NCBI GenBank assembly: GCA_028284775.1 | Contig: JANQRB010000015.1 | Coordinates: 1-64,000 of the forward strand | DNA from: Candidatus Kapaibacterium sp. | GTDB taxonomy: Bacteria > Bacteroidota > Ignavibacteria > Kapaibacteriales > UBA7675 | Length of the DNA stretch: 64,000 bases | Reading direction: 5' to 3' | Shown: positions 17,220-32,441 of the stretch, one piece after another | Position numbering within the stretch: position 1 is the first letter of the stretch | How the letters are laid out: every line of letters begins with the position of its first letter | Made by a program: the position numbers and the translations under genes | Notes under the pieces: generated by a model | What the model saw: only the letters and a program-made list of their open reading frames with translations | What the model was told of the DNA's origin: nothing | Databases searched by the model: none

Positions 17220-17969
17220 CTAGCCGGCATCCAACAGATACTTCAGACGCCGCAGCAAAGCAACATCATACAAGCCTGCCGGCAATTCAAGCGTAACGGC
17301 CGGCATGCAAGGATTCCGGCGACGCGCCTGACTCAAGGTCAGCAGCGTCAACAGCAGCATGTCGGTGTCGGCTGCCGCGCTGCGCTGAGCGCCGATGCCG
17401 GGCAGAGGAATATATATATCGGCAGCGCCGGCAACCGGGGCCAGATCCGCAAGCACGCTCCACAGACAATCAAGAATCCGCGCATACTCGCCAAGCGCCG
17501 GCGGCGGTTTTGCATCGGCTGCTACTCCCTCCGACACAGCTAAAAGGATGAGCAGACCATCGTCGGTCCGAAGAGTGGCGCTGCGCCCTGCCCGATACTT
17601 GCGGCGTGTGACGCCGTTCACTTTTTCCAATGCGAACGGCGTCCCTTTCAGCGCTTCGTGAAGTTGCCACGCTTCGACTTTAAAGGCCGCGGCACGCGCC
17701 GGACTCGGCAGTGAAATGACGCTGCCGGCCGGCGTATTGTCGCAGTCGGCCGGCAGGTTGAAAAAGCAGTCCGTCGCAACGACGTAGTGCTTGCAGCCAT
17801 TAGCATTGTTTTCGGCAAAACCCGCACAAAGCCTGATACCCTCAGCCATGGTAACCTGCCTGCCCTTTTGGTTCGCACCCTCGACATAGGCCAGCAGACT
17901 TCGCCACAGCCTGGAAAAGTAGGATGATATTACCAGCGAACCTGCCGCCCCATCCGGCAACTTTTTCAT
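17220..17969 (-). CDS. Putative macro-like (ADP-ribose-binding fold) protein, last gene of the signalling operon
   Basis: 249-aa protein, not firmly recognised. The layout suggests a macro-type alpha/beta fold: a strand with YVVATDCFF and acidic/Asn residues near the N-terminus, LLILLAVSEG in the middle, then ADIYIPLPGIGAQRS, which resembles the phosphate-binding PL.G.G loop of macro-like domains in conflict systems. ATG 17969 (MKKLPDG) has AGGAA 6 bases upstream, better than ATG 17984. It lies 28 bases after the 471-aa gene and closes the VWA/kinase/phosphatase operon. If the fold is right, it may sense or process the ADP-ribose-type products made by TIR enzymes. The family call is tentative. 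Confidence 0.6.
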   Translation of the reverse strand: MKKLPDGAAGSLVISSYFSRLWRSLLAYVEGANQKGRQVTMAEGIRLCAGFAENNANGCKHYVVATDCFFNLPADCDNTPAGSVISLPSPARAAAFKVEAWQLHEALKGTPFALEKVNGVTRRKYRAGRSATLRTDDGLLILLAVSEGVAADAKPPPALGEYARILDCLWSVLADLAPVAGAADIYIPLPGIGAQRSAAADTDMLLLTLLTLSQARRRNPCMPAVTLELPAGLYDVALLRRLKYLLDAG

Positions 17970-17997
17970 AGCTTGTTCCTGCATTCAGTTGTTTCAG

Positions 17998-19413
17998 TTA
18001 TATTCTCACCGCTAATGCTGCCGTATCGATCGCTTCTCCCAACAGGATGGAAAAGTCTTTGGCTTCATAACACGTTCGTTCGGCGCCAAGGCATGACGCG
18101 CTGCCATTGCATATCAAATCGTCATACTGTCCGTTCGTCCGCAGCTCCGCGCGCCAGACCGATTCGCCTTCGCGCTGCAGCAGCAGGTCGCAGAATGCCA
18201 GCCAGACGTTGTTAAACAGGCAGGCTCCCCGGTAGATAGTAGTGCTCTGCAGTACGGGATCATAGATTACCACAAGCGCAGGTATTCGCCGCTTGTTAAC
18301 ATCGCGCAGCAAGGCGATCTGCGGCGATTGATCGAAAGGACGTCGGGTGTAATGTAGCAGCGTATAGTCGTCATAGCCGAGCTGCGTCACCTTCGCATGC
18401 CGTAGCGGGAGATTGATAGCCGCCTGCTCGGCCTGCAGCAGCGCTTCGAAGAGAAAAGCCATAATAAACGAAACAATCTCCGGCCGCCAAACCTGTTGCA
18501 GAGACCAGAAAAGTCGCCGCACGCTACAGCAGGCGGCACGCTGTTCGCCATCGCGCGTACATAGTTCGAATTCATTGCAGCGGAACAATCTGGCGGTGAC
18601 GGCATTAACCGCCTCGAGCTCGATTCGACCGAGATAGCCCTTCTTGCTTAAGTTGACATTGGTCCGCAGATAGCGTTTCCACTCGTTTTCAAGACTGTGA
18701 AGCACACGCTCATTGTCAAACTCTTCTTCTTCCTGGTTCAGCGTGACGGCTGCCGACATCAGCAAGGCTTCGCAGATCGCGCGTTTCCAGTTCGAATGAT
18801 AATACTCGGGCAGCGATGCCGGTCGGTGGAATTGCGCGCTGTGCAGCTTGGGAATTATGGCAAAAAGATGGTCGTAGGGCAGTCGGCGGCAGGCGCTCAG
18901 TTCCTCCACCTCTTCGAAAAGCGGCTGCAGAGACCCGATGGCCTCGCGTTCCTGAAACGATTCCAGATGCCTGCGAAAGACGGCGTTGGTGGCGCTATAG
19001 GTGCTTCCCACACCGGCAGACGGACATTCGTCATAGACTGCCTGGAAGTCATCCTGATTGCCGTTGCCGGCCAGGCCGATCAGTGCGGCCTGGCGCAGAC
19101 GCGGATTGAGATCGGCATCCGGATCGTCGCGCTCACCGCGAATCGTGTATTCGCCAAACTGCGGCAGGCTTTTGTCATCCGCGTAACAGGCACGCAAGAG
19201 CAAGTCAGCACAATAACAGTCGCCTGTCGGTTGCCTGCCCACGATTACATCAGGAGCCGCGCCCTGGACAAGCTCCTGATCGTGCAGGCCGAGCAGGGCA
19301 CGCAAGCGGTTGGAGCTTGCGACGGCAATCCGGTCGATCAGGACTGTGCCGCTGTATTCTTCTGTCGTCACATGCCGGGGCAGCAGTGAGCCGCTTAACA
19401 ATTCATCATTCAT
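17998..19413 (-). CDS. Unknown 471-aa protein in the VWA/kinase/PP2C operon
   Basis: No family recognised. The protein is soluble, with no signal peptide or membrane helix. The N-terminal third is mixed, the middle (about 165-350) mostly helical with an acidic run (NQEEEEFDNERV), and the C-terminal part has a strand-rich VVIYDPVLQSTTIYRGACLFNN stretch (split around YDP) and several cysteines. ATG 19413 has GGAGAG upstream, and only 22 bases separate it from the PP2C stop. Its fixed position between phosphatase and macro-like genes suggests it is the phospho-substrate or effector scaffold of the kinase/phosphatase pair. That is inference from order only. Confidence 0.8.
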   Translation of the reverse strand: MNDELLSGSLLPRHVTTEEYSGTVLIDRIAVASSNRLRALLGLHDQELVQGAAPDVIVGRQPTGDCYCADLLLRACYADDKSLPQFGEYTIRGERDDPDADLNPRLRQAALIGLAGNGNQDDFQAVYDECPSAGVGSTYSATNAVFRRHLESFQEREAIGSLQPLFEEVEELSACRRLPYDHLFAIIPKLHSAQFHRPASLPEYYHSNWKRAICEALLMSAAVTLNQEEEEFDNERVLHSLENEWKRYLRTNVNLSKKGYLGRIELEAVNAVTARLFRCNEFELCTRDGEQRAACCSVRRLFWSLQQVWRPEIVSFIMAFLFEALLQAEQAAINLPLRHAKVTQLGYDDYTLLHYTRRPFDQSPQIALLRDVNKRRIPALVVIYDPVLQSTTIYRGACLFNNVWLAFCDLLLQREGESVWRAELRTNGQYDDLICNGSASCLGAERTCYEAKDFSILLGEAIDTAALAVRI

Positions 19414-19435
19414 TTTTGCTCTCTCCGGGAGATTG

Positions 19436-20266
19436 TTAATTGTTTGTAGAATTGGACTTAAAAATCACTATGGCAAGATCGTCGACAAGTCGCGGAAAAC
19501 GAGCATTGTCCAGGCGACGTCTGAAGGCTTGCAGGGTGGCGTCTTCACCCAAGCGATTGAGAGTGCAGGTCTGTTCGTCATCCAGGAAGCCATCGAACCG
19601 CCGTCTGCCATCATCGCTGTTAATTACATGCGCCAGACCGTCGCTGGCAATCCAGATTCGTGACGTCCGCGGCAGCGCGCCCGCGGCATAGATCCGAAAC
19701 TGTTCCCGATCCGGCTGACGCCAGCGCAACAGCGACTCATTAAGATAGGCCGCCGCCGGAACCGCGTGCAGTTTGTCGTCAATGCCATAGTAGCCGTCGC
19801 CGACGCCGAAAATCCAATAACGCGAGCCGAGCAAGGCACATCCGACAACCGTAAACATCAGCGTATCGAGCACAAAAGCATGATAGCGCTCACGATCGCG
19901 TCGCAGGCTGAAACCCATACCGTTGCAGAGCTTGCGGAAGCGCTCATGAAGTTGCCGCCGCAAGCTCGCAAGGATCGGCTGTATGTCGAGTCGATCCCGA
20001 TCAACGGCATCAGCCAGGGCCCGGGCAAGCTCATTGGCAATCAGCTCAGCGCCAAGCCGCGCGCCGACGAGGTTGTGCGAGTAGCCGTTGCCTGCAGTAC
20101 TGCATCCATCGCAGACCACGGCTACTCTTACATCTCCGGCCGTTGCATGCCAGCAGGCGTCCTGCAGACCGAAGCCAAGCTTATGGTGCAAGGGCCCCTG
20201 ACGGACAACCGTGCCGATTGCAAAGTCTTCGGCTCCCTGGGCTTTCCTGTTGGCTGAAGCATTCAC
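19436..20266 (-). CDS. PP2C-family Ser/Thr protein phosphatase
   Basis: 276-aa metal-dependent phosphatase that should reverse the adjacent kinase. All PP2C metal positions are visible: QD near residue 36, VCDGCS (D53, G54), VGDGYYG (D157, G158), ASDG (D209, G210) and the C-terminal VDDLAIVIF (D262, D263). It is cytoplasmic, without a membrane helix. Translation probably starts at GTG 20266, which overlaps the kinase stop as GTGA (20263-20266), a strong sign of translational coupling. Together with the VWA and kinase genes it forms a TerY-P-like triad described by comparative genomics in stress and phage-response loci. Confidence 0.92.
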   Translation of the reverse strand: MNASANRKAQGAEDFAIGTVVRQGPLHHKLGFGLQDACWHATAGDVRVAVVCDGCSTAGNGYSHNLVGARLGAELIANELARALADAVDRDRLDIQPILASLRRQLHERFRKLCNGMGFSLRRDRERYHAFVLDTLMFTVVGCALLGSRYWIFGVGDGYYGIDDKLHAVPAAAYLNESLLRWRQPDREQFRIYAAGALPRTSRIWIASDGLAHVINSDDGRRRFDGFLDDEQTCTLNRLGEDATLQAFRRRLDNARFPRLVDDLAIVIFKSNSTNN

Positions 20267-21390
20267 GTTCGATCTTCCCCATGTTGAAGTTCACGAAGAA
20301 AAGACTCCTGCAGACTGGCGCGGATTCGCCGCCGTCGCGCCGGAACGCGTCTGATCATTGTGTGCATTAGTTGTTTAACAAAACCCTTCATGGACTCATC
20401 GCGCATATCGGGCTTCTCTCCTGCAAACAAGTCACTGCTTAGGGGCGTACTGTCTTCACGGGGCAGGTAGTCTTCGAGAGCGCTTGCGATCGGTAGCCGC
20501 GCCGCGGGGTCCGGCGAGAGAATCGCCACGAAAAAATCGAGCAATGCCGGTTTGTTCAGAAGCCAGTCGGCGCTGCGAACTGCGCTGCCCTTGTGAGCCA
20601 GCAGAGAGTGTTTAATAAACGGCCGGTAGTCACAAGCTTCGCCGCCCGGTGCTTCTTTCCAGGTGGCGGCCAGCGGCGCGCTCCAGGGATGATAACCCAT
20701 GAATAGCTCGAAAGCGATTACCGCCAGGGCCCACCAATCGCTTTGCGGACTAAACTGCGGCTGTGAAGCAAGTTGTACGGGACGCAAGGCGCGTGCCAGC
20801 GGATCGAGGTACTCGGGCGTATAAGTTTCACCCTCATAGTTCGGCATGGCGCATGAATCGAAATCGATAAGATAGGGCCGTTGATCGGCGATCAGGACGT
20901 TTTCCGGCTTCAGATCGCAGATTATAACCCGTTGGCGGTGCAGCGTCGTTATCACATCGCAGAGGTCGTACAGCACATTGGCTATCCGGCGATCCTGAAG
21001 GGATTGCTCGGCCTCGCTCAGGCCGGGATGCCAGCGCAGTGCATCCAGTGTCGCCGACTCCGGCAGGTAGCGCATACAGAAACCCGCCACGCTGCCTTCG
21101 ACATCGTTCTTAAAACGCAGCAGACGCTGCGGCGCCACCGCCAGACGATGAAAAACACCCAGCTTCTCCTGCGCACAGAGGATCGTCAGCTTTTCGTTCA
21201 GTCGCGTTGCCAGTGGCGCTTCGTAGTAGAGCTTTGCCACGCTTTCATCGCTGATCTTAAACACTTCGCCATCTTTGCCGCCGCCAAGGTAAGAGGCATT
21301 CGACAAGGTGTAATGCCGGCCATCGCTGTCAACAACTTCAGCGCCGGCATAATGGGCCTGAAATTCACGCTCATTAGTTTGCAAGTTCAT
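20263..21390 (-). CDS. Ser/Thr protein kinase (Hanks type)
   Basis: 375-aa soluble kinase. The glycine-rich loop is GGGKDGEV (36-43), the ATP lysine K53 (VAKLYY), the catalytic loop CDLKPEN (D159, K161, N164) and the metal-binding motif DFD rather than DFG (176-178). The C-lobe contains SDWWALAVIAFELFMG. The basic C-terminus has no zinc ribbon, unlike many TerY-P kinases. ATG 21390 has GAGGA upstream at 5-base spacing and overlaps the VWA stop by 17 bases; the frame is open to 21432. It overlaps the PP2C gene by 4 bases. It probably phosphorylates a component encoded in the same operon. Confidence 0.92.
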   Translation of the reverse strand: MNLQTNEREFQAHYAGAEVVDSDGRHYTLSNASYLGGGKDGEVFKISDESVAKLYYEAPLATRLNEKLTILCAQEKLGVFHRLAVAPQRLLRFKNDVEGSVAGFCMRYLPESATLDALRWHPGLSEAEQSLQDRRIANVLYDLCDVITTLHRQRVIICDLKPENVLIADQRPYLIDFDSCAMPNYEGETYTPEYLDPLARALRPVQLASQPQFSPQSDWWALAVIAFELFMGYHPWSAPLAATWKEAPGGEACDYRPFIKHSLLAHKGSAVRSADWLLNKPALLDFFVAILSPDPAARLPIASALEDYLPREDSTPLSSDLFAGEKPDMRDESMKGFVKQLMHTMIRRVPARRRRIRASLQESFLRELQHGEDRT

Positions 21391-22276
21391 GGTTGTCCTC
21401 AATAGATTCCTGGTTCGTAGCATTGCCGACAAGCATCCGAAGCGTATGCTGACTTGCAGCGGCGGATTCGGGCACTACGTCGCTCACCCCTTGCTCTGAT
21501 ACTCCCTGCTCTGTTGTTGTCGCGGAGCCGTCCGACTCAAGTATCCGGCTGGATACGAGGTCTATCATTTCCCGAATAGTCGAACTGGAAGCGTTGGCGT
21601 CGATCACTTCGTCTATGCCGATGCGATTGCCGATGGCGCGGTAGTCATAATTGCCAAGGCCAACAAGCGTTATGCGCGTGACAAAACCCTTTGCTTTAAC
21701 TTCTGCAACCACGTCGCGCAGCGCTTCGGCGCTCGTCTTACTGTGTTCGTCCTTACCGTCCGTCAGCACGACGATGCTGGAAACTACTTCCTGCCCCAGC
21801 TCACGGGCATTAAAGTGAACGGCTGTCAAAACCGCGATCGCTCTCATAATTGCATCATAAAGCGCCGTGCCGCCCGAGGGCTGATACAGCTCGTTGTTAA
21901 GGATCTTAACATCGGCATGTCGCGCAAAAGCGTCGGCGGGATCACACAAGGGCGAGAGTCCGTTCAGGATGTCGTCTACATTGTGATTAAAGAGAATCTG
22001 CCCGAAGTAGATTTCACGCGAGCGCTGCACGCCGAGCAGTGAATTAACAAGATGCTGCTGTGCGAGAATGAACTCGCGGCGCAGATCGCGTTCCTTGAAG
22101 CCGATTGAGGCGGACTTGTCAAGCAAGAGAATTGTAGGGCGGATCGTATTGCCGTCGAGGTATTCTTTTGCGATCGGCACAGCATCGGCTACTGACATCA
22201 GGCGCTCCGCCGTGCTGCGTTCCAACTCATCCATTGCCGTCAGTTCTTCGAGAATCTGCCGTTCAGTCTTAGACAT
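21374..22276 (-). CDS. TerY-like von Willebrand factor A domain protein
   Basis: 300-aa cytoplasmic VWA protein with a complete MIDAS: DKSAS (D53, S55, S57), T137 in GGTALYDA and D173 in LTDGKDE. The preceding 45 residues are helical, and the tail contains a duplicated EQGVS. Such single-domain VWA proteins pair with a kinase and PP2C phosphatase in TerY-P triads, where they are thought to scaffold the complex. ATG 22276 has TTAGGAG upstream and is preferred over the upstream ATG 22324. The gene is first of the tight five-gene run and starts 41 bases after the TIR-WD40 stop. Confidence 0.92.
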   Translation of the reverse strand: MSKTERQILEELTAMDELERSTAERLMSVADAVPIAKEYLDGNTIRPTILLLDKSASIGFKERDLRREFILAQQHLVNSLLGVQRSREIYFGQILFNHNVDDILNGLSPLCDPADAFARHADVKILNNELYQPSGGTALYDAIMRAIAVLTAVHFNARELGQEVVSSIVVLTDGKDEHSKTSAEALRDVVAEVKAKGFVTRITLVGLGNYDYRAIGNRIGIDEVIDANASSSTIREMIDLVSSRILESDGSATTTEQGVSEQGVSDVVPESAAASQHTLRMLVGNATNQESIEDNHELAN

Positions 22277-22316
22277 ACATACTCCTAAAGTGTTAAACAA
22301 AAACACCGTTAGGTGC

Positions 22317-24038
22317 TTACACAATTGTAAAATTCGATCGCTTGTGCGTTCGTTTGATTTCTATTTTACCGCAAAAGCCGAGATAGCGCTCATAGCCCTC
22401 GCCGACAACCTGATGCGCGGCGTTGAGCGCAAACCATTTGCCGCCTTCCAGAGCCAGGATCGTACCGAGCACATGACCGGTAGCCGCCTGACGTATCTCG
22501 ATGCTGCCGTCGCTTTTAACAATTCCCACGCCGCGTCGGCCCAATGCCGCCGTTGCGACCGGTGCGCCCGCAAATCGAGCCGACCAGCGGACGGAACCTT
22601 TCATCAGCTCGCGGGCCTGCAGGGAACGATCTTTCAGCCCTACAAAAAGGAGTCCCGCCGGGTGACGTGCCATGCAGCTAGGCAATACCGGCAGTTCAAT
22701 GCGTTTGCGAATGCCTTCGCCAACGCAGGTTCGCAGCACATAGGCCTGATCGGACTGTGTTGTTGACAGGTAAACGCCATTGTTGTTAAAGCCGATGAGA
22801 GCTGAAATGGCAGCTTTGTCATGTTCCCTGATACCGGGCAGACCTTCACCGCTTTGCCGGTCCCACACCAGCACTTCGCCGCGTTCGCTGCCTGCCAAAA
22901 CGTAACGGTCATTGCTGCAGAATGCGCCGCTTGTTAAATTCTGACCGACAGCCCGAAATGACTGCAGCGTGTGGTTAATGTCGTCGGAAGAAACGATCTG
23001 GATATGCTCGCTCTTGTTGATGAGGAGAAGCTGACTGCCCTGTTGGGTGTACTGCAGCGCTGCCAGAGATTCATGCGCGCGTTTTGCCTGCCGCTGTGTG
23101 GTGCCGTCGCGGGCGATGCGCCATATCTGCAGGCCGTGTTTCATTCCCGCCGCAACTTCCCAGCCGTCCGTCATCGTGCGAACCGCCAGCGAATGGGGAG
23201 CACCGAAGTCACGCTGCAGCCGATAAAATTTGTGCACGGAAAAGTCGCCGATCTGCCAGAGGTGAATAGTCGCATCATCGTGCAGCGTAGCCAGAAGTCT
23301 CCCGTCGGCGGAGCTGGCGATACAGCGGGCCGGAGCACAATCGCGGATCAGATCCGGGAGGTCCAGGAAGTCAGTCCGGGTGCCCTCGTACATGCGCCGA
23401 ATCTTGACAGCCGTATTTTGAGATACAGACTTTACGTTACGGCGCGTCAGCAGTTTTTTGCATTTGGCGTCGCTCAGGATGCGACGCAGTGGTTTGTTTA
23501 AGTCGCGCGCGAGTTCGGCAAGCCGTACCTCTTTCGCTGTCGTATTGTCAAGCGCCGCCTTTTCCCGCCCGGCACGGATGCGTATCGCCTGTCTCAGAAT
23601 ATGATCGTAGATATCCTTAAACAGCGCCTTCTGTTTGCCCGGCTCGGTGTAGTGCTCTTCTAGCGTGCCTTCGGTGGGCAAAAACTTATGCTGACGTAGC
23701 CAACGATAATCCCGCCAGTCGCAGCGCGATAAAATAACCGGCAGAACTACTTTGTCTTTTTCGTCGAAAGAGTCGAGGAATTCACGCACCTGCTGGCTGA
23801 TACAGTAGGCCGAACCCAGAAACAGATGACTGACGAGAACCAGAATGATATGCGACTCCCTGATCTGCAGTTCAATCGTCTCGTTCCATACATCGCCGGC
23901 TGCAATCTGTTCTTCCCACCAAAACTCAAGACCGCGATGTTCAAGAGGACGCAGATAGGAAAACAGACAATGTCGGCCTTTGACGTATTTTTCGTCACTC
24001 TGATCGTAGGCAACGAATACTTTAATTGTTGAAGCCAT
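22317..24038 (-). CDS. TIR-domain protein with C-terminal WD40-like propeller
   Basis: 573-aa protein. The TIR domain (about 5-150) has KVFVAYDQSDE, FWWEEQIAAGDVW, ILVLVSHLFLGSAYC and VVLPVILSRCDW, then the extension FLPTEGTLEEHY also found in the TIR of 24174-25931. At the position four residues after the YC cysteine, where many bacterial TIRs carry the catalytic Glu, it has Gln (Q83); E86 is nearby. Residues about 195-545 contain WD40-type repeats (ATLHDDATIHLWQI, YVLAGSERGEVLVWDR). ATG 24038 (MASTIK) is the likely start. Bacterial TIRs typically consume NAD or make signalling nucleotides; this one may instead be a sensor or partner TIR. Confidence 0.9.
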   Translation of the reverse strand: MASTIKVFVAYDQSDEKYVKGRHCLFSYLRPLEHRGLEFWWEEQIAAGDVWNETIELQIRESHIILVLVSHLFLGSAYCISQQVREFLDSFDEKDKVVLPVILSRCDWRDYRWLRQHKFLPTEGTLEEHYTEPGKQKALFKDIYDHILRQAIRIRAGREKAALDNTTAKEVRLAELARDLNKPLRRILSDAKCKKLLTRRNVKSVSQNTAVKIRRMYEGTRTDFLDLPDLIRDCAPARCIASSADGRLLATLHDDATIHLWQIGDFSVHKFYRLQRDFGAPHSLAVRTMTDGWEVAAGMKHGLQIWRIARDGTTQRQAKRAHESLAALQYTQQGSQLLLINKSEHIQIVSSDDINHTLQSFRAVGQNLTSGAFCSNDRYVLAGSERGEVLVWDRQSGEGLPGIREHDKAAISALIGFNNNGVYLSTTQSDQAYVLRTCVGEGIRKRIELPVLPSCMARHPAGLLFVGLKDRSLQARELMKGSVRWSARFAGAPVATAALGRRGVGIVKSDGSIEIRQAATGHVLGTILALEGGKWFALNAAHQVVGEGYERYLGFCGKIEIKRTHKRSNFTIV

Positions 24039-24071
24039 AGTTTCAGTCTGTTCAATTAGCAAACACGATTC

Positions 24072-24138
24072 AAAAAGCGGCCCCCGACGCCGGGAACGTG
24101 GGCATCAGGCAAGTGTCCGATTGTGACGTCAGGGGCCG
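24072..24138 (-). terminator. Terminator or attenuator between the two TIR genes
   Basis: On the minus strand CGGCCCCTGACG pairs with CGTCGGGGGCCG (12 bp, one G-U) across a 37-base loop and is followed by CTTTTTG. It lies just after the deiminase-TIR stop. The long loop makes it less typical, so it may reduce rather than stop read-through into the TIR-WD40 gene. Confidence 0.5.
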
Positions 24139-24173
24139 TGCGTGCGGACAGAGCACAGTTCCGGGCCGGCGGA

Positions 24174-25931
24174 TCAGTCTTCAGCGGCGCGTATGCGCTC
24201 GCCGATCACACGCAGATTTTTACGTATTTCCAGAAACAGTCTGGCCTGCCTTCCCTTGTCGTTATAATGCTCCTCCACCGTTTCGCCGTCGGTAGGTAGA
24301 AAGCGAATGCGGCGCAGCCACTCCGCGCGCTGCCACTCGCAGGCAGAGAGTATGATGGGTACGATCGGCATTCCGCGCCGCGAAGCCTGCTCTAAACACT
24401 CCCGCACTTCGGTGTTGCGGCAATAGTCGGAATCGAGAAAGTGTTGGCTGATCAGAAACAGCGCGATGTCGGCCTGTTTAATCTGACGGATGATAACCTG
24501 ATGCCAGACATCGCCTATGAGCAGATCGCGGTCGAACCAATACGTGAAGTTATCGTGCCGCAAGCCATCGAGTACCGTCAGCAGACGTTCTTTTGCCAGA
24601 TGCTGCGCGTCGGCGTGGCTGTAGCCGACAAAGATCTTAAGAGGACGCTGCGCCGAATCATTGACGGTCGCCGCAGAGCTCACTCGATCCTGCCATGGCT
24701 CATCCTGAACCTGGTCCCTTAGGTATGCACCGCGCCGCAAGACTTTGGTAATGCAGTGAAAGGAGCCCTTGTTGGCCGAACGATGAACGAAGGATTCGTC
24801 AACCATACGCACGCTGAAACCCTCGGCCCGGAAGACACGCCGTGCATCCTCTTCCGCCTGCGCGAAGACGTTTTTCCGGCCGTTCGCCGATCGTTCGTAG
24901 CGCGGCAGGTATACATTGCGCTGATCGTCGTAAACTTCGATTAAACAGTTGTTGTAGGGGCGGGCGATGAATCCGGTCGTGCCGCCCTCATCGTAGTCGA
25001 CAATCAAGGGCAGGCGAACAACGCGAAATTTCGTGCTTTGCGCGATACCTTCTTCCAGGCGCAGTGCAAGCTCATCCAGTCCGTCGCGCAGCAGCGCCAC
25101 CTGTTGCTGCTGCGTGCCGATGTTGACACAATAGCGTTCACGCACTTCACCGACAAAGATCAGCTCGCGCCCCGAAGGGTCTTTGCCGCCCAGCGTCAGG
25201 TAGAGATCGATATGATGCAGCAAGCCGTCCAGGCTGCGTAAAGCGCTTGGATTGCGCCACTGCTGTCCGCCATCCGGCGTCTGGTCGATCCAGATAACTT
25301 CGCGCACGCCAAGCCGCCGTTGAAAATCCTCCGTTAAGCGGCTGCGCACAAGTTCCCGATCATCACCGCGTACGAGATTGCGGTCAAGCAGGGTCCGGCC
25401 CGCAAGAACATAAGCGTCGCCGGCCAACAAGTCGCCTCCTTCGAACATGTACTTGGTCTTCGTGCTGCGCAGGTTCAGCTCGGCGGCCAGCATATCCGTA
25501 ATCCATGCGTTGCCGTCGCCGCGGCGCGGCTTGGTATTAAGCGCGCTCAACAGGGTCGGCGCGCCCTCTTCCTGCAGCACTGCCAGATGGTCCTGAGCCC
25601 ACTCCGAAATGCTGAGTTTTAGCCTGTCGTCGTAAACGACAACGCTCAGTCTGGGATCGTGGCAGCCGGCATACTCCAGCAAGTCCGCAGGCAGAAGTTG
25701 TACGGTCTGTTCGCGCTGAAAGCGCGAAGCATAAAAACCGGCTGCGTCATAGGGCGCCAGCAGCACATAGTGGACATCCGGCGGCAGACCGCGCTGAATG
25801 CCGTTGTAGATCCGGATCACATCCTGCGGTTCGCGCAGCAGACCCGGGTAGGTAAACAAAAGCTGCTTAATCTTGCCATAGACTGATGATACAACCGTAC
25901 TGCGCGCTAAGCCCATTGCTCTGTCCCGCAT
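24174..25931 (-). CDS. Pentein (agmatine/arginine deiminase-like) enzyme fused to a TIR domain
   Basis: 585-aa fusion. Residues about 15-405 match the guanidino-modifying pentein fold of agmatine deiminase/PAD: WAQD (111-114), FEGGD (E164, D167), HHID (H240, D242) and KGSFHCIT with the nucleophile C393. All expected catalytic positions are present, so an active hydrolase acting on a guanidino compound is likely. Residues 431-575 are a TIR domain (KIFVGYSHAD, YWFDRDLLIGDVW, LFLISQHFLDSDYC, IVPIILSACEW) with the Glu (E508) four residues after the YC cysteine, then RFLPTDGETVEEHY as in the neighbouring TIR-WD40 protein. Cytoplasmic. ATG 25931 or 25916 is possible. I know of no described system with this fusion. 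Confidence 0.88.
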   Translation of the reverse strand: MRDRAMGLARSTVVSSVYGKIKQLLFTYPGLLREPQDVIRIYNGIQRGLPPDVHYVLLAPYDAAGFYASRFQREQTVQLLPADLLEYAGCHDPRLSVVVYDDRLKLSISEWAQDHLAVLQEEGAPTLLSALNTKPRRGDGNAWITDMLAAELNLRSTKTKYMFEGGDLLAGDAYVLAGRTLLDRNLVRGDDRELVRSRLTEDFQRRLGVREVIWIDQTPDGGQQWRNPSALRSLDGLLHHIDLYLTLGGKDPSGRELIFVGEVRERYCVNIGTQQQQVALLRDGLDELALRLEEGIAQSTKFRVVRLPLIVDYDEGGTTGFIARPYNNCLIEVYDDQRNVYLPRYERSANGRKNVFAQAEEDARRVFRAEGFSVRMVDESFVHRSANKGSFHCITKVLRRGAYLRDQVQDEPWQDRVSSAATVNDSAQRPLKIFVGYSHADAQHLAKERLLTVLDGLRHDNFTYWFDRDLLIGDVWHQVIIRQIKQADIALFLISQHFLDSDYCRNTEVRECLEQASRRGMPIVPIILSACEWQRAEWLRRIRFLPTDGETVEEHYNDKGRQARLFLEIRKNLRVIGERIRAAED

Positions 25932-26090
25932 TGAGTGTTATGATACTAATAGTTGTTATACTAAATACCAGGCAGCGGGACACTGTGCGCGTTTGCTCCT
26001 GCAAAGCGATGGCAGTGACGCTCGGGCAGGACGCACGAAACATGCCCCGCCGCCTATTTACGGACCGATTTCCCTGTTCCTAAAGCTTCG

Positions 26091-26633
26091 TCAGACCGTC
26101 TTCACGAGAAAATCATAACCCGAGTTAAAGGCATTGGCCTGGAATGTCACACGCAACATATTGTTGCCGCCCTCCTGCTCGACCTTCAAATGAACAAAGG
26201 CCTTGGAAAGCAGGAAGCGATGGATTTGAGGGTTTTGAGAGACGCCCAGACCACAGTCGTCGCGGATATCGTCTATACTGAGAAATTCCGCGTCAACTCC
26301 CGGAGTTTCCGAGAGATTCGGCGAAAAGACGTTCGAAAGACCATGATGCTGAAAGCTTGCTCTATCCGAACCGGCAAAGACCGAGATTGATTTTGTAGAT
26401 GTCGGACCGTTGAGTGTCAACGAGCCGATGCAAAAATTGCCGTTGATGACACCGATGCCTTTTCCGGCACCTTCCAAATTGAACACATACTCGTTACCTC
26501 CGCTGGTGCATTCGCGTATCTTGATTTCTTTTTCATTTTGATAGTACGCTTTGAATGTCGTTAGCGGAAATTGCGCCAGACCACCCCCACCGGGAAGTTG
26601 TTCGACTGTTAGCAAGGCAGAGTTAGAATTCAT
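26091..26633 (-). CDS. Unknown 180-aa beta-rich protein upstream of the TIR genes
   Basis: No family recognised. ATG 26633 has AAGGAG upstream at 8-base spacing; the frame is open to 26669. The protein is soluble and rich in G, N, S and short strands (LTTFKAYYQN, KGIGVINGNFCIGSLTLNG, FVHLKVEQEGGNNMLRVTF), with no signal peptide. It lies 160 bases upstream of the deiminase-TIR gene on the same strand, with an AT-rich region before it that could hold the promoter of the whole set. Membership in the system is inferred from position only. Confidence 0.7.
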   Translation of the reverse strand: MNSNSALLTVEQLPGGGGLAQFPLTTFKAYYQNEKEIKIRECTSGGNEYVFNLEGAGKGIGVINGNFCIGSLTLNGPTSTKSISVFAGSDRASFQHHGLSNVFSPNLSETPGVDAEFLSIDDIRDDCGLGVSQNPQIHRFLLSKAFVHLKVEQEGGNNMLRVTFQANAFNSGYDFLVKTV

Positions 26634-27222
26634 TGAATAAACTCCTTGAAATATTACAAAGTGAAACATCTGAAAATCTCACGCTATTCTTCGTCTAAAC
26701 GTTCGTTCACTCAGCAAAGATATAGGCGAGAACATTAGCTATTATGTTACTCGGTCATTCGGACTCACAGCGTAAATCTACACGCTTTGTGAACCTCTTT
26801 TCAAACAAAAAACTGCTTGTTATTGATACAAGTTTATCAGGATTTCAATCGAAAAACGGACCTATCACGAAATCGAGATTCATTGTCTTAGACTATCGCA
26901 GCAGAAGAAATAGTGGGCATTTTTTCGCAAAAACGTCAATTTTTCTGTAAGCTGATTGATGTCGCTTGGGTATAATCTGATAACATAGTGGCAACAAAAA
27001 GTAGCTGGTTATTGACCAAAAATGAAATCGTACTGACATTCAATTAGGAGATGATAATGACCGTTTTGTTTTTGTAATAGTGCTTGTCATGTTATTTTCA
27101 CTCCGCGCTAGTTAGCTCATACAGTCACGCACTCATTTGCAATAAGAATCGATGCCTTTATACTGTAAGCATCTCGTGTTAATGCGGCTGTTTTGTAAAT
27201 GTAAAAATTTAGAAGAGTCTTT
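26634..27222. other. AT-rich intergenic region between divergent genes
   Basis: 589 bases, clearly richer in A and T than the rest of the window. It should hold divergent promoters for the TIR cluster and the helical-repeat gene. A ribosome-site-like AGGAG precedes a 6-codon frame at 27057-27077, too short to call. No tRNA or repeat is evident. Confidence 0.45.
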
Positions 27223-28740
27223 ATGCGACCTCATAAACAGGAAGTCTATCTGTTGGTGAAAGCACTTTCGAAAAGTGAGACCAGGTGGATTCGAAAGTAT
27301 CTGAAGTCAAACGACAAATCAGAAGGAAGTCTTAAACTGTTCAACTTGTTCAAGTCATTGAACTCTTACAACGTTGAACAAATTGGCACTGCATTCAAAC
27401 CTAAGCTCGAAGGGAGCCGTCTCGCACATGCAAAGAGCCGTCTCGGAAAACTTATACTTGATGGAATGAGAGATTTCAATGCTCGCAATTCAAGCGACAA
27501 GGAACTTCTAAATTTACTGGCGGACTCTCGTCTACTCACAGAGAAAGGACTTGTACGTTGGAGTGAGAAAGTTCTTATCACAGCAAAGTCAAAAGTAATT
27601 GAAGAAGAAAAGTATTGGGCGCTACCACCACTATTGGACACGGAAAGGGCTCTTCTACAAGCACGGCAAGAAAGCGGAGTCCAAAATTCTCTCCAAGAGA
27701 TTCTCCAAGAGACAACTTTCGCTCTCGAGACTCTACAAAGAGAGTATGAGCTCAAAGACATTCACGCCAAGCTGTTGCAGCGGATTCGGACAAATTTATA
27801 TGAACCACGAGAGTCGAAGAAAAAGTTTCTTAACGAAGTATTGAATCACGAGCTTATACATGTAGTTAAAGGCAAAGAGACATTTACAATTCGAAAATTG
27901 GTTCTGGTTATCAAAGCGAATGCGAATCACTTTTTGGGAGAGTATCCTCAAGCTATTAAGAATCGCGAAGAACTGGTTGAGATGTGGGAGAAAAATGCGA
28001 CATTTCGAAAACTGTACAAGTCGCAATACATTATTGCACTTGCAAATTTGGCGCAACTGTACGTCCGATATCGTACGGATAACTTCCAACAGGTTCGGAT
28101 AATAATTAAGAAAATAAAAGCGATTGACACACGCAGCTACAACGAGAGACTCGAGAAATTTCAAAATTTGGCATTTACTGAACTGTCACTTCATCTGAGG
28201 GAGGGCTCTTTTAGTGAAATCTTGTCTGAAATATCATTCTACGAAGCGGGACTGGCTGAATTTAGTGATAGCCTTAGTCGCGCACGCAAAATTTCAATTA
28301 TGGATATTATTTCGACTGTCTATTTTCTAATTCATGACTACCGCACCTCTCTGCTATGGCTACAGAAGATTTCAGACACCGAAAAACTTGATCCGCACTC
28401 TGTCAGGCAGGACGTCAAAATTAACGCAATGATAGTTAAGCTTCTCGTGTTTTACGAGCTCAATGATACAGATAACGTCATTTCATTGAGCAGATCTATT
28501 AAATATCATTTACCCAAGCTAGGGACTCATTTTCCGCTCGAAGATGCTGTCCGCCAGTGTATTGTCAAACTAAGCAACTCGAAAGGCTCGGAAGCAAAAA
28601 TGAAGATTCTCGAAGATCTAGATCTGAAAATTACAAAAATGCGCAATGACCGTTCAATTTCTGCCAAATACAGCTATAACATTGTTGCGAAATGGTTGAG
28701 TACAAAACTTAAACAGTCTCGCAGCCCAAATCATAATTGA
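27223..28740 (+). CDS. Helical-repeat protein of a Bacteroidota-type family, function unknown
   Basis: 505-aa protein, almost entirely alpha-helical. The N-terminus (EVYLLVKALSKSETRWIRKYL) resembles a recurrent opening of uncharacterised Bacteroidota proteins with TPR-like repeats (consensus LSKSEKR). Later segments (NHFLGEYPQAIKNREELVEMWE) look like TPR helices. There is no signal peptide, membrane helix or enzymatic motif. Codon use is AT-rich, unlike the flanking genes, suggesting a different origin or recent transfer. AGAAGAG precedes ATG 27223. It may be an accessory gene of the same island as the TIR cluster, on the opposite strand. Confidence 0.82.
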   Translation: MRPHKQEVYLLVKALSKSETRWIRKYLKSNDKSEGSLKLFNLFKSLNSYNVEQIGTAFKPKLEGSRLAHAKSRLGKLILDGMRDFNARNSSDKELLNLLADSRLLTEKGLVRWSEKVLITAKSKVIEEEKYWALPPLLDTERALLQARQESGVQNSLQEILQETTFALETLQREYELKDIHAKLLQRIRTNLYEPRESKKKFLNEVLNHELIHVVKGKETFTIRKLVLVIKANANHFLGEYPQAIKNREELVEMWEKNATFRKLYKSQYIIALANLAQLYVRYRTDNFQQVRIIIKKIKAIDTRSYNERLEKFQNLAFTELSLHLREGSFSEILSEISFYEAGLAEFSDSLSRARKISIMDIISTVYFLIHDYRTSLLWLQKISDTEKLDPHSVRQDVKINAMIVKLLVFYELNDTDNVISLSRSIKYHLPKLGTHFPLEDAVRQCIVKLSNSKGSEAKMKILEDLDLKITKMRNDRSISAKYSYNIVAKWLSTKLKQSRSPNHN

Positions 28741-29133
28741 ATATTAGCACAATTATGCATTCTTGCCCATCAGTTTAAATGAGCCGACCATCTCATCTTC
28801 TTAACACTATCAGCGATGCTTGTTAGATATAGCGCTACATTCTAAGCGGTTGATGCTGACTAAAGAGTGCTCGCCGGCGTACATAATCACGGAAGAGTTG
28901 CTATAACGGCTGTTCTCTTAGGAATCAATTACGTGACAATGATACCAAATGCCAACAATCTGCATGAGTTCCCGGTAACAGGGCTGCCGAGGCTAAGCCA
29001 TCCAAATTAGATCATGTGCAAATCATTTTAGTGTCGCGGGAATAGAGTTTAAGATTGTAATTGCAGTTGTGTAAAGACTAACAGTGGATAGCTCGTAAAG
29101 AAGCTAAAGTACGGAGCAATTGGCCTCACGCAG
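28741..29133. other. Intergenic, nothing recognised
   Basis: 393 bases between convergent genes. No hairpin with a T-run, no RNA gene and no open frame of note. Confidence 0.4.
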
Positions 29134-29874
29134 TTATCTAAAGGTATTAATGGCATTACCGGGCTCCAGTCGTTCACACAAATCACCCAGCGGCGGCTCA
29201 AAGCGCTCCTGGAAGAATTCGAAGATCACGCGGCGGCCGATCCATTTTTTGATCTCTGTTTTTTCAATGACTGCCTGAAACGATCGATAACAGTCGAGCG
29301 CGCGTTTGACACGCTCGATATCCTGCTCGTCTACCTCGACAACGCAGTCGATAGCCTCTGGCTTGCTGCCGCGCAGACCGTACGCCCGTTCGGGAGATGC
29401 TTCGTCTTCGCTGATCGAATACATAGCAAAGCGCTGTGGCAGTCCCTCGCGCTCCCGCAGTTCACAACAAACGCGCTTGACGACCGCATGCGTAACAAGG
29501 TGATCGGGAAATCCACTGACGCCGAAGACATTGTAACTGACAATGATCTGCGGCCGCAACCTCAGAATTTCCTGCCGTACTACTTCTTCAATTGCACGCG
29601 GATCCATTTCCGCCAGACCGCCATCCGGCAAATCGAGGACTTTCATTCCGCTCAGGCCCAACACTTGTCGTACTTCAAGCATCTCCCGGTAGCGCAGCTC
29701 GCCCATTTCCTCGACCGACAGCTTGTGTCTGAAACGCTGCTTTGTCGCGCCACCCCTGGTAAGCGTCAGCAGATGCACCTCATGGCCCTGCCGCCTTTGC
29801 AGCGCCATCACATGCCCCGGTCCGAAGGACTCATCATCTGGATGGGGAAAGATATACAGGATTTTCATTGGCAT
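29134..29874 (-). CDS. PIG-L/LmbE-family deacetylase
   Basis: 246-aa zinc hydrolase of the PIG-L family, which removes acetyl groups from N-acetyl sugars and related conjugates (for example N-acetylglucosaminyl-inositol or bacillithiol precursors). The signature PHPDDES lies at residues 10-16. LLTLTRGG with a conserved E.R..E segment, and FPDHLVTH with the metal-binding histidine, follow at family spacing. It is cytoplasmic, without a signal peptide. ATG 29874 and 29868 (MKIL) are both plausible. The gene has no close partner, so the substrate cannot be inferred; a thiol- or glycoconjugate-related role is possible. Confidence 0.9.
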   Translation of the reverse strand: MPMKILYIFPHPDDESFGPGHVMALQRRQGHEVHLLTLTRGGATKQRFRHKLSVEEMGELRYREMLEVRQVLGLSGMKVLDLPDGGLAEMDPRAIEEVVRQEILRLRPQIIVSYNVFGVSGFPDHLVTHAVVKRVCCELREREGLPQRFAMYSISEDEASPERAYGLRGSKPEAIDCVVEVDEQDIERVKRALDCYRSFQAVIEKTEIKKWIGRRVIFEFFQERFEPPLGDLCERLEPGNAINTFR

Positions 29875-30487
29875 ATTGCGGTATGAATGAGATTGCTCGA
29901 AAAGGTATGAATACTCCGGGTCGTGTGTCTATCACGGGCCAGCAATCACCCGATTGTAACGGGAAAGCATCTTCACCTTTCGCATACTCGATGAGAGTGA
30001 GAACATTCACCAGGACTTCTCCCACCACAGAGAGAATCACACTGAAAAGCGACTGATTTACGACTGATACTACTATTGTTCAATATATTCTGAATCTATG
30101 ATCTTCAAGCTTATAACTGAAAGCTCTGTAAATTGTCTTTTTGGCAGAGGATGCGCACCGAAACGCAATACGCATCAATTAGCGTTATAACCGACATTTT
30201 TGCGGAAAAAGGCTCATTCTCCTTAAGAATGACAAGCAAGGTTGCCTAATGCTACTATACATTTACGGCTGCTGCCGCTCGCTAATTCGTCGCTTGTGGC
30301 TCAGCACTGCATTCTTGTCAGCCACGGTTTTCACTAAGAGTCGGCATTTCATCTACCATTAATCATGCACAATCGTGCCTATTGCATTAAATTCAACAAG
30401 TTAGTACCTTCCACCTGTCCTGATTGTCTCATGCCAATACGGAAAATATGGAAAGCACGGGGATGCATTTAAGCGGGAGAACCAGTT
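29875..30487. other. Intergenic between divergent genes
   Basis: 613 bases. Promoters of the PIG-L and peptidase-like genes should lie here. No RNA gene or repeat was recognised; 30050-30200 is AT-rich. Confidence 0.4.
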
Positions 30488-31636
30488 ATGAGTTGCAATG
30501 TAATGTTTCGGACGACGCTATTTCTGATGTTGATTTGTCTCGTCTGCCAGATGCCTGCTCAGGCACAGGCAGACAAGGGTGAGCTACAACTAACGCTGCG
30601 AGTCAACAGTTCGAACAATGAAGTACGGTCAGTTCTCGAAATATGGCAAAACTATCTCGCGTCCCGACCCGATTCACTCTACGATAACCCATATTGGACG
30701 CCGGAAGAGAAGGACGCGGACAAAGAGTTCGATTTGACCCGCACCTGGGTCTTCTTCGCTCCCGACATCTTTCAGTATTTCACACCAACCGTTCTGAGCG
30801 TGGAGGCCGAATCGCCGGATCTGTATAGTATTCGCACCCTGTTTCACGGCTTGAATGCCGCCGATGGCGTGTTGCTGCCGATGGCACTGCACAGAGTGTA
30901 TGCCAGGAGAAATGAAAACGGCGAATGGAGACTTAGCTCCGCCTTACCCCACCTGACGGCCGATTGGCAGCGGCGCAGTATCGGCCGGATCAGCTTTGTG
31001 TACCCGCCTACCCACACATTCGATAAGGAACTGGCACGGCGGGCGAATGACTATTGCAACAAGGTACGGCGGAAATTCGATTTACAAGATCCCGGTCATA
31101 TCTACTTTTACATCTGCGACAGCAAAGACGAACTGGCTCGCATCCTTGGGCTGGACTACTACATTCGGCCGGTGCATGGCCTGGTGTACGAACGCAACGG
31201 GATTCTTCTTAGCGGCTTGGGCAGCGAATTCTACCCGCACGAACTGGTCCATGTCTTGTTCAGAGAATTTAGTGATACGCACCGCTTTCTGCACGAAGGA
31301 GTCGCCACGTGGCTCGGCGGCAGTCTGCGGGAATCCCTGGATGAACTCGTACTTCAGTTTGCGGCGTCGCTCGAAGACGGAGGATCCTTTTCCTTCAAAC
31401 GCATGCTGAACAATGTAGCCGAAGAATCAACCACGTATTATACAGTCGGCGGTATGCTCTGTCGCGAAGCCTATCGACGCGGCGGCAACGTATTGCTCAA
31501 GCGGCTGCTGCGCGCACCGGCTGAAGAAGAAGAAATGTTGCAGCGCATCGAAGCGGTTTTCGATGTTCCGCAGAGTGAGTTCGAGGCTCTGGTTGTCAGC
31601 CTGCTGCCGGAAAGTGTCGTGACGTCGATTGAATGA
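30488..31636 (+). CDS. Secreted HExxH zinc metallopeptidase-like protein
   Basis: 382-aa exported protein. The first 27 residues form a signal peptide (LFLMLICLVCQMPAQAQA). The catalytic region has HELVH (251-255) and a downstream HEGVATWLGG with E270 as third zinc ligand, the gluzincin (peptidase MA-like) pattern. The N-terminal domain (about 30-160) looks like an NTF2/SnoaL-type alpha+beta module. The ribosome site GGGAGAA precedes ATG 30488. There is no T9SS tail, so it is probably periplasmic. The substrate is unknown; it may also be an inactive or very specific relative. Confidence 0.83.
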   Translation: MSCNVMFRTTLFLMLICLVCQMPAQAQADKGELQLTLRVNSSNNEVRSVLEIWQNYLASRPDSLYDNPYWTPEEKDADKEFDLTRTWVFFAPDIFQYFTPTVLSVEAESPDLYSIRTLFHGLNAADGVLLPMALHRVYARRNENGEWRLSSALPHLTADWQRRSIGRISFVYPPTHTFDKELARRANDYCNKVRRKFDLQDPGHIYFYICDSKDELARILGLDYYIRPVHGLVYERNGILLSGLGSEFYPHELVHVLFREFSDTHRFLHEGVATWLGGSLRESLDELVLQFAASLEDGGSFSFKRMLNNVAEESTTYYTVGGMLCREAYRRGGNVLLKRLLRAPAEEEEMLQRIEAVFDVPQSEFEALVVSLLPESVVTSIE

Positions 31637-31859
31637 GGTCCCGTAACTAAAGTCTGCTTCAAAAACAAGAACGAGTGTTTCTTGAGCGTTCGCAGAAGAC
31701 AATCCGAGCGATGTTTATCGGGGTTGCCATCCTCCCGAAAGCTTCGTGGTTCTATTCATCGCGACAAATGATGGCCTCAAGGTGGGAGATCAGGTGGCAT
31801 ACAGGCAGCAACTTCACCCACCGATCATACTAGATAGATGTCGCGCTGGCCTCTCCCGT

Positions 31860-32441
31860 TTATACGCGCAGGCCCTCCAGGAGAATTTCCATTGTCCGCT
31901 GTGCTTCTGCGAGGGCAGCTTGCGGGTCGGGCGCTTCTGCAATCCACAGGGCGGATTCATTCATTGCGCCGATGAGAAGTGAGGCCAGGGCATCAAGAGA
32001 AAGCTCCGGGAGCAAACCGGCGGCAGCGAGTTCTTCCAGACCTTCACGCAGCAGCTGCGAGCCATTGCGCGCATCCAGTTCACGCCAGCGACGCCAGCCC
32101 AATACCGCCGGCGCATCGATAATGACGATTCTCTGCAGCGTGGGATCGGCCGCCGCCGTCAGGAAAGCCCTACAGCCAGCCGTGAACCCGCGCCATAGAT
32201 CTTTTTCGCTCTCAACCGCCTGTAGAATCTGTTCGGCGATCTCACGCAGTGCATCTTCGAATACGGCTTCAAATAAACCCTTTTTGCCCGCGAAATGGTG
32301 GTAGAGTGCGCCGCGGGTCAATCCCGCCAGCCTCACCAGCTCCTCAGTTCCCGTTTGCGCATAGCCATGCTCGCTGAATTGCCGCCTGGCGATGCGGATG
32401 ATTCGCGCGACCGTTGCACGCGCCTGTTCCGCCTTGGTCAT
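31860..32441 (-). CDS. TetR-family transcriptional regulator
   Basis: 193-aa repressor. The N-terminal HTH (about 10-55) reads ARRQFSEHGYAQTGTEELVRLAGLTRGALYHHFAGKKGLFEAVF (split motifs: TGTEEL, GLTRGALYHHF), a textbook TetR DNA-binding domain. The C-terminal helices bind ligand or dimerise. It is divergent from the glyoxalase-like gene, with three overlapping palindromes (32469-32530) between them, so it very likely represses both its own gene and that one. Its inducer is unknown. Confidence 0.93.
   Translation of the reverse strand: MTKAEQARATVARIIRIARRQFSEHGYAQTGTEELVRLAGLTRGALYHHFAGKKGLFEAVFEDALREIAEQILQAVESEKDLWRGFTAGCRAFLTAAADPTLQRIVIIDAPAVLGWRRWRELDARNGSQLLREGLEELAAAGLLPELSLDALASLLIGAMNESALWIAEAPDPQAALAEAQRTMEILLEGLRV

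Follow-up and report, generated by a model that had tools for sequence, protein, structure and literature searches.

Descriptions of regulatory protein citrullination come mainly from vertebrates. The PADI gene was reportedly transferred to animals from cyanobacteria (PMC8826395), and PPAD, AgDI and PAD4 have equivalent catalytic residues: an Asp (D130, D96 and D350, respectively), a His (H236, H218 and H471), a second Asp (D238, D220 and D473), an Asn (N297, N306 and N588) and a Cys (C351, C357 and C645), all of them essential in PPAD (PMC4487231). Among bacterial systems, the NTP-dependent conflict systems of multicellular prokaryotes have in common with the locus described here their variable effectors, including caspase and TIR, and their vWA components (PMC7159879), but neither that source nor PMC8195603 mentions a deiminase or a pentein. 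Our search of the open-access literature on bacterial conflict and anti-phage systems turned up no mention of a pentein, a deiminase or citrullination, and PADLOC has no model for the pentein (one weak, unrelated match among 18 members). This agrees with a first-pass annotation of this DNA, which knew of no described system with a pentein-TIR architecture.

The pentein-TIR fusion

The window, that is, the whole stretch of 64,000 nucleotides that we analyzed, comes from a 7.9-Mb metagenome-assembled genome of Candidatus Kapaibacterium sp. (G000). By ORF scan, Pfam, Foldseek and hhalign, it encodes on the minus strand of a 187-kb contig a pentein-TIR fusion of 585 aa (24174..25931), with an ATG start and no stop throughout. 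As had been claimed from the first reading, an intact pentein is thus joined to an apparently intact TIR in one open frame, and the residue positions given then (W111-A-Q-D114, EGGD at 164-167, H240-I-D242, H392-C393 and E508) are exact. Across the junction of both domains the coding phase does not change, and the two alternative frames contain stops there, so a frame error at this point is unlikely. One could argue that an assembly or frame artefact wrongly joined two adjacent genes, since the fusion was seen once among 39 penteins and the fused TIR is similar to that of the adjoining TIR-WD40 gene. Yet the single open frame, the length of the contig and the TIR genes that follow a pentein on the same strand in Aureispira make such an artefact hardly credible. 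The first-pass annotation had considered a unique fusion caused by a frame error: the fusion is indeed the only one among the 39 penteins, while the error is not supported at the junction. We therefore rejected a recurrent pentein-TIR fusion, a possibility it had raised; TIR genes lie near the pentein at 4 of the 39 loci (the window, L039, L186 and L176). The G+C content is around 0.49–0.50 at positions 24001-32000, versus 0.53–0.57 in most of the window, and this DNA was possibly acquired.

Regarding the pentein domain (residues 1-405; 24717..25931, minus strand), the Pfam PAD_porph family (PF04371) matched residues 140-218 of the fusion protein below the cut-off (E=2e-4), and its identity therefore needed profile and fold comparisons. 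With hhalign, the entire domain aligned to five Bacteroidota agmatine deiminases (98.1%, E=6.5e-14), and a profile of 14 paralogs matched solved agmatine deiminases in the PDB colinearly (E=2e-4). The AlphaFold model of the fusion protein (pLDDT 70, pTM 0.62) retrieved agmatine deiminases and PPAD with Foldseek at 8e-15 to 2e-12, and plant and SARM1 TIRs at about 1e-4. The profile and structure searches proposed at first reading thus support a pentein at the N-terminus.

Among 39 relatives, which share about 20–34% identity with the window copy, D114 is conserved in 38/38, H240 in 36/38, D242 in 38/38, N328 in 39/39 and C393 in 38/39. These five residues align onto the catalytic residues listed above (PMC4487231) and make up the complete PPAD/AgDI/PAD set. 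Both Asp, the Asn and the Cys are present in every intact copy, the sole loss of the Cys being in a disrupted one (L023), and His240 is replaced by Asp in two paralogs. In that copy (L023:9192-12714), the C-terminus including the Cys is apparently gone just before transposase-like ORFs. All catalytic elements listed earlier are present in the window copy, but the Glu of EGG is not conserved, being found in just 14 of the 39 relatives.

By its AgDI/PPAD-related fold and its Asp, His, Asp, Asn and Cys set, the domain belongs to the pentein superfamily of the agmatine deiminase type. It shares both with the agmatine deiminase/PPAD family (PF04371), but the Arg of WxRD and the Glu of EGG, invariant in the agmatine deiminases compared, are not conserved in window-type penteins, which mostly have WxQD. 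These also carry signatures of their own (SxVYGKI, YNNCLVE and GSLHCxxKVL) and belong to a partner-bearing cassette. Together with the sub-threshold PF04371 match and the lack of an NCBIfam match, these differences set the domain apart from agmatine deiminase as an enzyme. PADI-type PADs (PF03068) form another subfamily of penteins and have a PAD_M domain; Pfam found neither PF03068 nor PAD_M in the window protein, and the PADs of this genome are separate genes.

The TIR domain spans residues about 431-560 (24252..24641, minus strand), with a Pfam TIR_2 match above the cut-off at residues 433-546 (E=2e-14). Its D467, S501 and E508 align with D33, S68 and E74 of Cat1, which line the Cat1 NADase site; E508, the Glu candidate of the first-pass annotation, thus corresponds to the catalytic E74. 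According to this alignment, the predicted NADase site is apparently intact and the domain may cleave NAD. In Cat1 and other TIR NADases a non-TIR domain is likewise joined to a TIR with equivalent residues, but the domain is a CARF ligand-binding one in Cat1 and a deiminase fold in the window, where the pentein may plausibly gate the TIR. TIR_2 domains are few in the genome: six, two of them in the window operon.

A recurrent cassette with a small DxR protein

The pentein normally stands alone, and the recurrent unit is a cassette with a gene that we call DIV and a small adjoining protein. Seven further pentein copies were found in genome G000, all without TIR, four in G001 and three in G011, a relative of the same order. 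In our Saprospiraceae sample, 16 of 248 genomes carry one or more, and single copies lie on Vibrio, Paenibacillus and Aureispira plasmids. A viral or phage origin was rejected: pentein relatives were found neither in IMG/VR nor in phage records, and TIR relatives were not found in IMG/VR. In the window, DIV is a divergent, TPR-like gene of 505 aa (27223..28740, plus strand). Genes of this kind (about 510 aa, usually divergently transcribed) are present at 15 of the first 19 loci and at 15 of 20 Saprospiraceae loci. All 15 members compared match the NCBIfam BT2802 family (BT_2802_fam), with E values down to 6e-46; the window DIV, at 101 bits against a cut-off of 550 bits, is a distant relative. 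That DIV is specific to the pentein was rejected, as the genome holds about 50 matches, most of them without a pentein. Many of these BT2802-like genes adjoin a small protein ending in WTIGxxDx, followed by a varying gene, and the three together perhaps form a much larger modular family.

Immediately adjacent to the pentein are small proteins, one or two per locus, that are poorly conserved and apparently rich in beta structure. The one in the window, assigned by position and motif, is SM170, an ORF of 192 aa (26091..26669, minus strand), whose true start is probably an internal ATG. It contains the motif FLSIDDIRDD with the invariant D134 and R136 (Arg codon at 26262-26264). Such partners are nearly unalignable, with 22% mean column identity; nonetheless, in 27 of them picked by position alone, the Asp and the Arg are present in 27/27 and a Gly in 26/27, while the next best column reaches 19/27. 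We defined a strict pattern of two hydrophobic residues followed by G-x-x-D/E-x-R (hhGxxDxR) in a flanking small ORF. Of 41 deiminase loci, 34 have such an ORF, compared with 6 of the 304 other large genes in the fetched loci (p=6e-34 in Fisher's test, a value that overstates independence, as loci within one genome are paralogs). The seven misses include the window partner, which keeps the Arg and has Ser for Gly, a variant at L188, and L173 and L177, where the pentein continues at its C-terminus into the partner, with a DFRERY/H motif. Only the Vibrio, Paenibacillus and L184 loci, among the 41, have no recognisable partner.

The partner lies upstream of the pentein in Ignavibacteria-like genomes, the lineage of the window, and downstream in Saprospiraceae, so the linkage survives reordering. 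In the lineage of the window, the distances between penteins are correlated with those between their partners (r=0.63, p=2e-4); within Saprospiraceae there is no such correlation (r=0.05). The structure prediction gave the partner no confident fold (pLDDT 56, no PDB match), too weak to place R136. Small proteins at deiminase-free DIV loci have a similar C-terminal motif, WTIGxxDx, with an Arg in 0 of 11, and this short motif suggests that they may be homologous to the DxR partner.

A second deiminase family occupies the same slot. At a DIV locus of genome G000 (L073:4558-6726, plus strand), a PAD that matches PF03068 at E=2e-113 and also has the PAD middle domain takes the place of the pentein and adjoins a 145-aa protein with FIGTDDIRDD. 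The second PAD of this genome (L076:5472-7598, minus strand) is also at a DIV locus, with a partner containing VFVGADDMR. The DxR partner is thus kept with PADI-type enzymes, and these two loci offer a possible clue to the role of bacterial PADs. In plasmids, the search for PADs gave only distant Streptomyces and Embleya matches, and the annotated Streptomyces neighbourhood does not contain the cassette.

Protein-arginine deimination as a candidate switch

We favour, tentatively, a reading in which the pentein is a protein-arginine deiminase that acts on the Arg of its partner as a switch, the TIR being one attached output. The main ground for taking protein arginine as the target is that two different deiminase families share the DxR partner. 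The pentein would then be a peptidyl-arginine deiminase with a dedicated target, its small neighbour. D114 and D242 would form the guanidinium pocket that takes up the invariant Arg of the G-x-x-D-x-R loop, and C393, with H240 and N328, would convert this Arg to citrulline. We infer that this charge loss would switch the partner and, by way of the partner, the output attached to the cassette or encoded after it. In the window the output would be tethered, with the deiminase fused to a TIR whose predicted NADase site is intact, so that binding or citrullination of the partner would decide whether the TIR assembles and cleaves NAD. The tethered pentein-TIR is encoded next to a probably non-catalytic TIR-WD40 protein and a vWA-kinase-phosphatase-macro operon, described below.

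In favour of the deiminase switch we count the catalytic set, the linkage of the partner and its invariant Arg, the reordering between lineages, the fusions at L173 and L177 and the replacement by PAD, as well as the Arg-less motif at deiminase-free loci (0/11), the distance correlation (r=0.63) and the intact Cat1-type residues of the TIR. Against it stand the partner without a confident fold, the partnerless copies, the Saprospiraceae value (r=0.05), the two paralogs with Asp for His240, the deiminase-free small proteins tied to the partner by a short motif only, and the lack of an obvious effector near most Saprospiraceae loci.

The invariant Arg of the partner could also be structural, or the pseudo-substrate of an inhibitor. 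The latter leads to the nearest rival, an enzyme-inhibitor (toxin-immunity) pair, in which the pentein would harmfully deiminate other proteins and would be held by the partner Arg in its active site until infection frees the enzyme and the fused TIR. A partner that is small, fast-diverging, one per paralog and tightly linked, with DxR alone invariant, is in keeping with this, as are the positions of the Vibrio homologue near an S-type pyocin gene and of the Paenibacillus homologue beside a gene for a DNA/RNA non-specific endonuclease. However, these two copies have no partner, and the single chain of partner and enzyme at L173 and L177 fits autoregulation equally well; we regard such a pair as unlikely, though deserving consideration. 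Among solved structures, agmatine deiminases are nearest in sequence, and W-x-x-D, H-x-D, N and C are the AgDI set. One could hence think of a small-molecule guanidino hydrolase whose substrate would be agmatine, arginine or a modified signal nucleotide, and which would feed or deplete a metabolite connected with what the TIR produces. This is rather improbable: the EGG Glu and WxRD Arg of those enzymes are not conserved, and the DxR partner, its fusion to the pentein and the replacement by PAD would be left unexplained. The metabolite-depleting toxin or free-guanidino sensor of the first-pass annotation accordingly becomes less likely than a protein-arginine deiminase, because the pentein travels with an Asp/Arg-invariant partner and the cassette also carries true PADs. 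Finally, the pentein fold might bind the Arg loop and gate effectors as a catalytically idle scaffold or sensor. The loss of His240 in two paralogs, and the permanence of pentein and partner while effectors vary, would agree with it, but the Cys, both Asp and the Asn are essentially invariant despite the low identity to the window copy, and the substitute is itself a deiminase of another family, which makes an idle fold very improbable.

Returning to the deiminase switch, what is new is the cassette, as its parts belong to known superfamilies. It is possible, although we would not rely on it, that it represents an undescribed bacterial protein-citrullination switch, made of a pentein or PAD, a one-Arg substrate protein and interchangeable TIR, caspase or SAVED-CRISPR outputs, here fused to TIR. 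If true, it would place bacterial PAD-like enzymes in a context and provide a candidate for their native substrate. The pairing of two deiminase families with an Asp/Arg-invariant small protein makes this candidate concrete and testable.

Effector-like genes around the cassette

Downstream of the fusion, the window encodes on the minus strand a TIR-WD40 protein of 581 aa (22317..24062), identified by Pfam and residue alignment. Its TIR is probably non-catalytic, because Gln replaces the catalytic Glu and Glu replaces the active-site Asp, and it may join the pentein-TIR protein in mixed TIR assemblies. It is followed by Pfam-assigned genes for a von Willebrand A protein (21374..22324), which overlaps its neighbours in the same operon, a Ser/Thr protein kinase (20263..21432; Pkinase, E=1e-18) and a PP2C-type phosphatase (19436..20266). 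Next come a protein of 471 aa with neither a Pfam match nor a plasmid homologue (17998..19413) and, at the end of the putative operon, a 254-aa protein with weak, sub-threshold similarity to the ThsA macro domain (17220..17984; E=4e-4). The genes from 17220 to 22324 overlap or are tightly spaced, apparently in a single operon with TIR-WD40. Scanning the window for Rfam families and tRNAs gave no matches. When we compared the locus with Thoeris (ThsA/ThsB), the PADLOC ThsB model matched the TIR (1e-18), and no N-terminal effector domain was recognised in the protein with the sub-threshold ThsA-macro match. The window operon thus likewise has a TIR gene and a weakly ThsA-macro-like one, but the pentein, the partner and the BT2802-like gene are all foreign to Thoeris.

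Beyond the cassette, effector-like genes vary by locus: TIR, caspase, SAVED/type III CRISPR and asparaginase. The outputs in the window are the fused TIR, TIR-WD40, vWA, kinase, PP2C and the weak macro match. A caspase with WD40 is near the pentein at three loci, and other loci have an asparaginase with a nucleoside phosphorylase-like gene. At L030:8866-9432, a stand-alone SAVED protein of 188 aa lies between the pentein and apparent RAMP-like CRISPR genes. The Aureispira cassette has NDT-like, ThsB-TIR and SLOG-TIR genes and adjoins a type III-B CRISPR locus; ThsB-TIR and SLOG-TIR, the Thoeris-like element of both cassettes, are also near the pentein in another Saprospiraceae genome (L186). 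The TIR fusion and the caspase, SAVED/type III CRISPR and ThsB-type neighbours would tie citrullination to bacterial cell-death and defence circuits. Nevertheless, most Saprospiraceae pentein loci have no evident effector nearby, and a defence output, if there is one, is therefore not general.

Subtilase or matrixin genes are near the pentein at further loci. Altogether, protease genes (subtilase, matrixin, weak trypsin-like and caspase) were seen near penteins at L174, L178, L192, L189, L019, L020 and L028, a proximity that recalls the pairing of gingipain and PPAD, where cleavage exposes the Arg first. In addition, two TIR fusions, one with WG repeats and the other with an FGE-sulfatase domain, lie about 3 kb from the pentein at L176:1137-5088.
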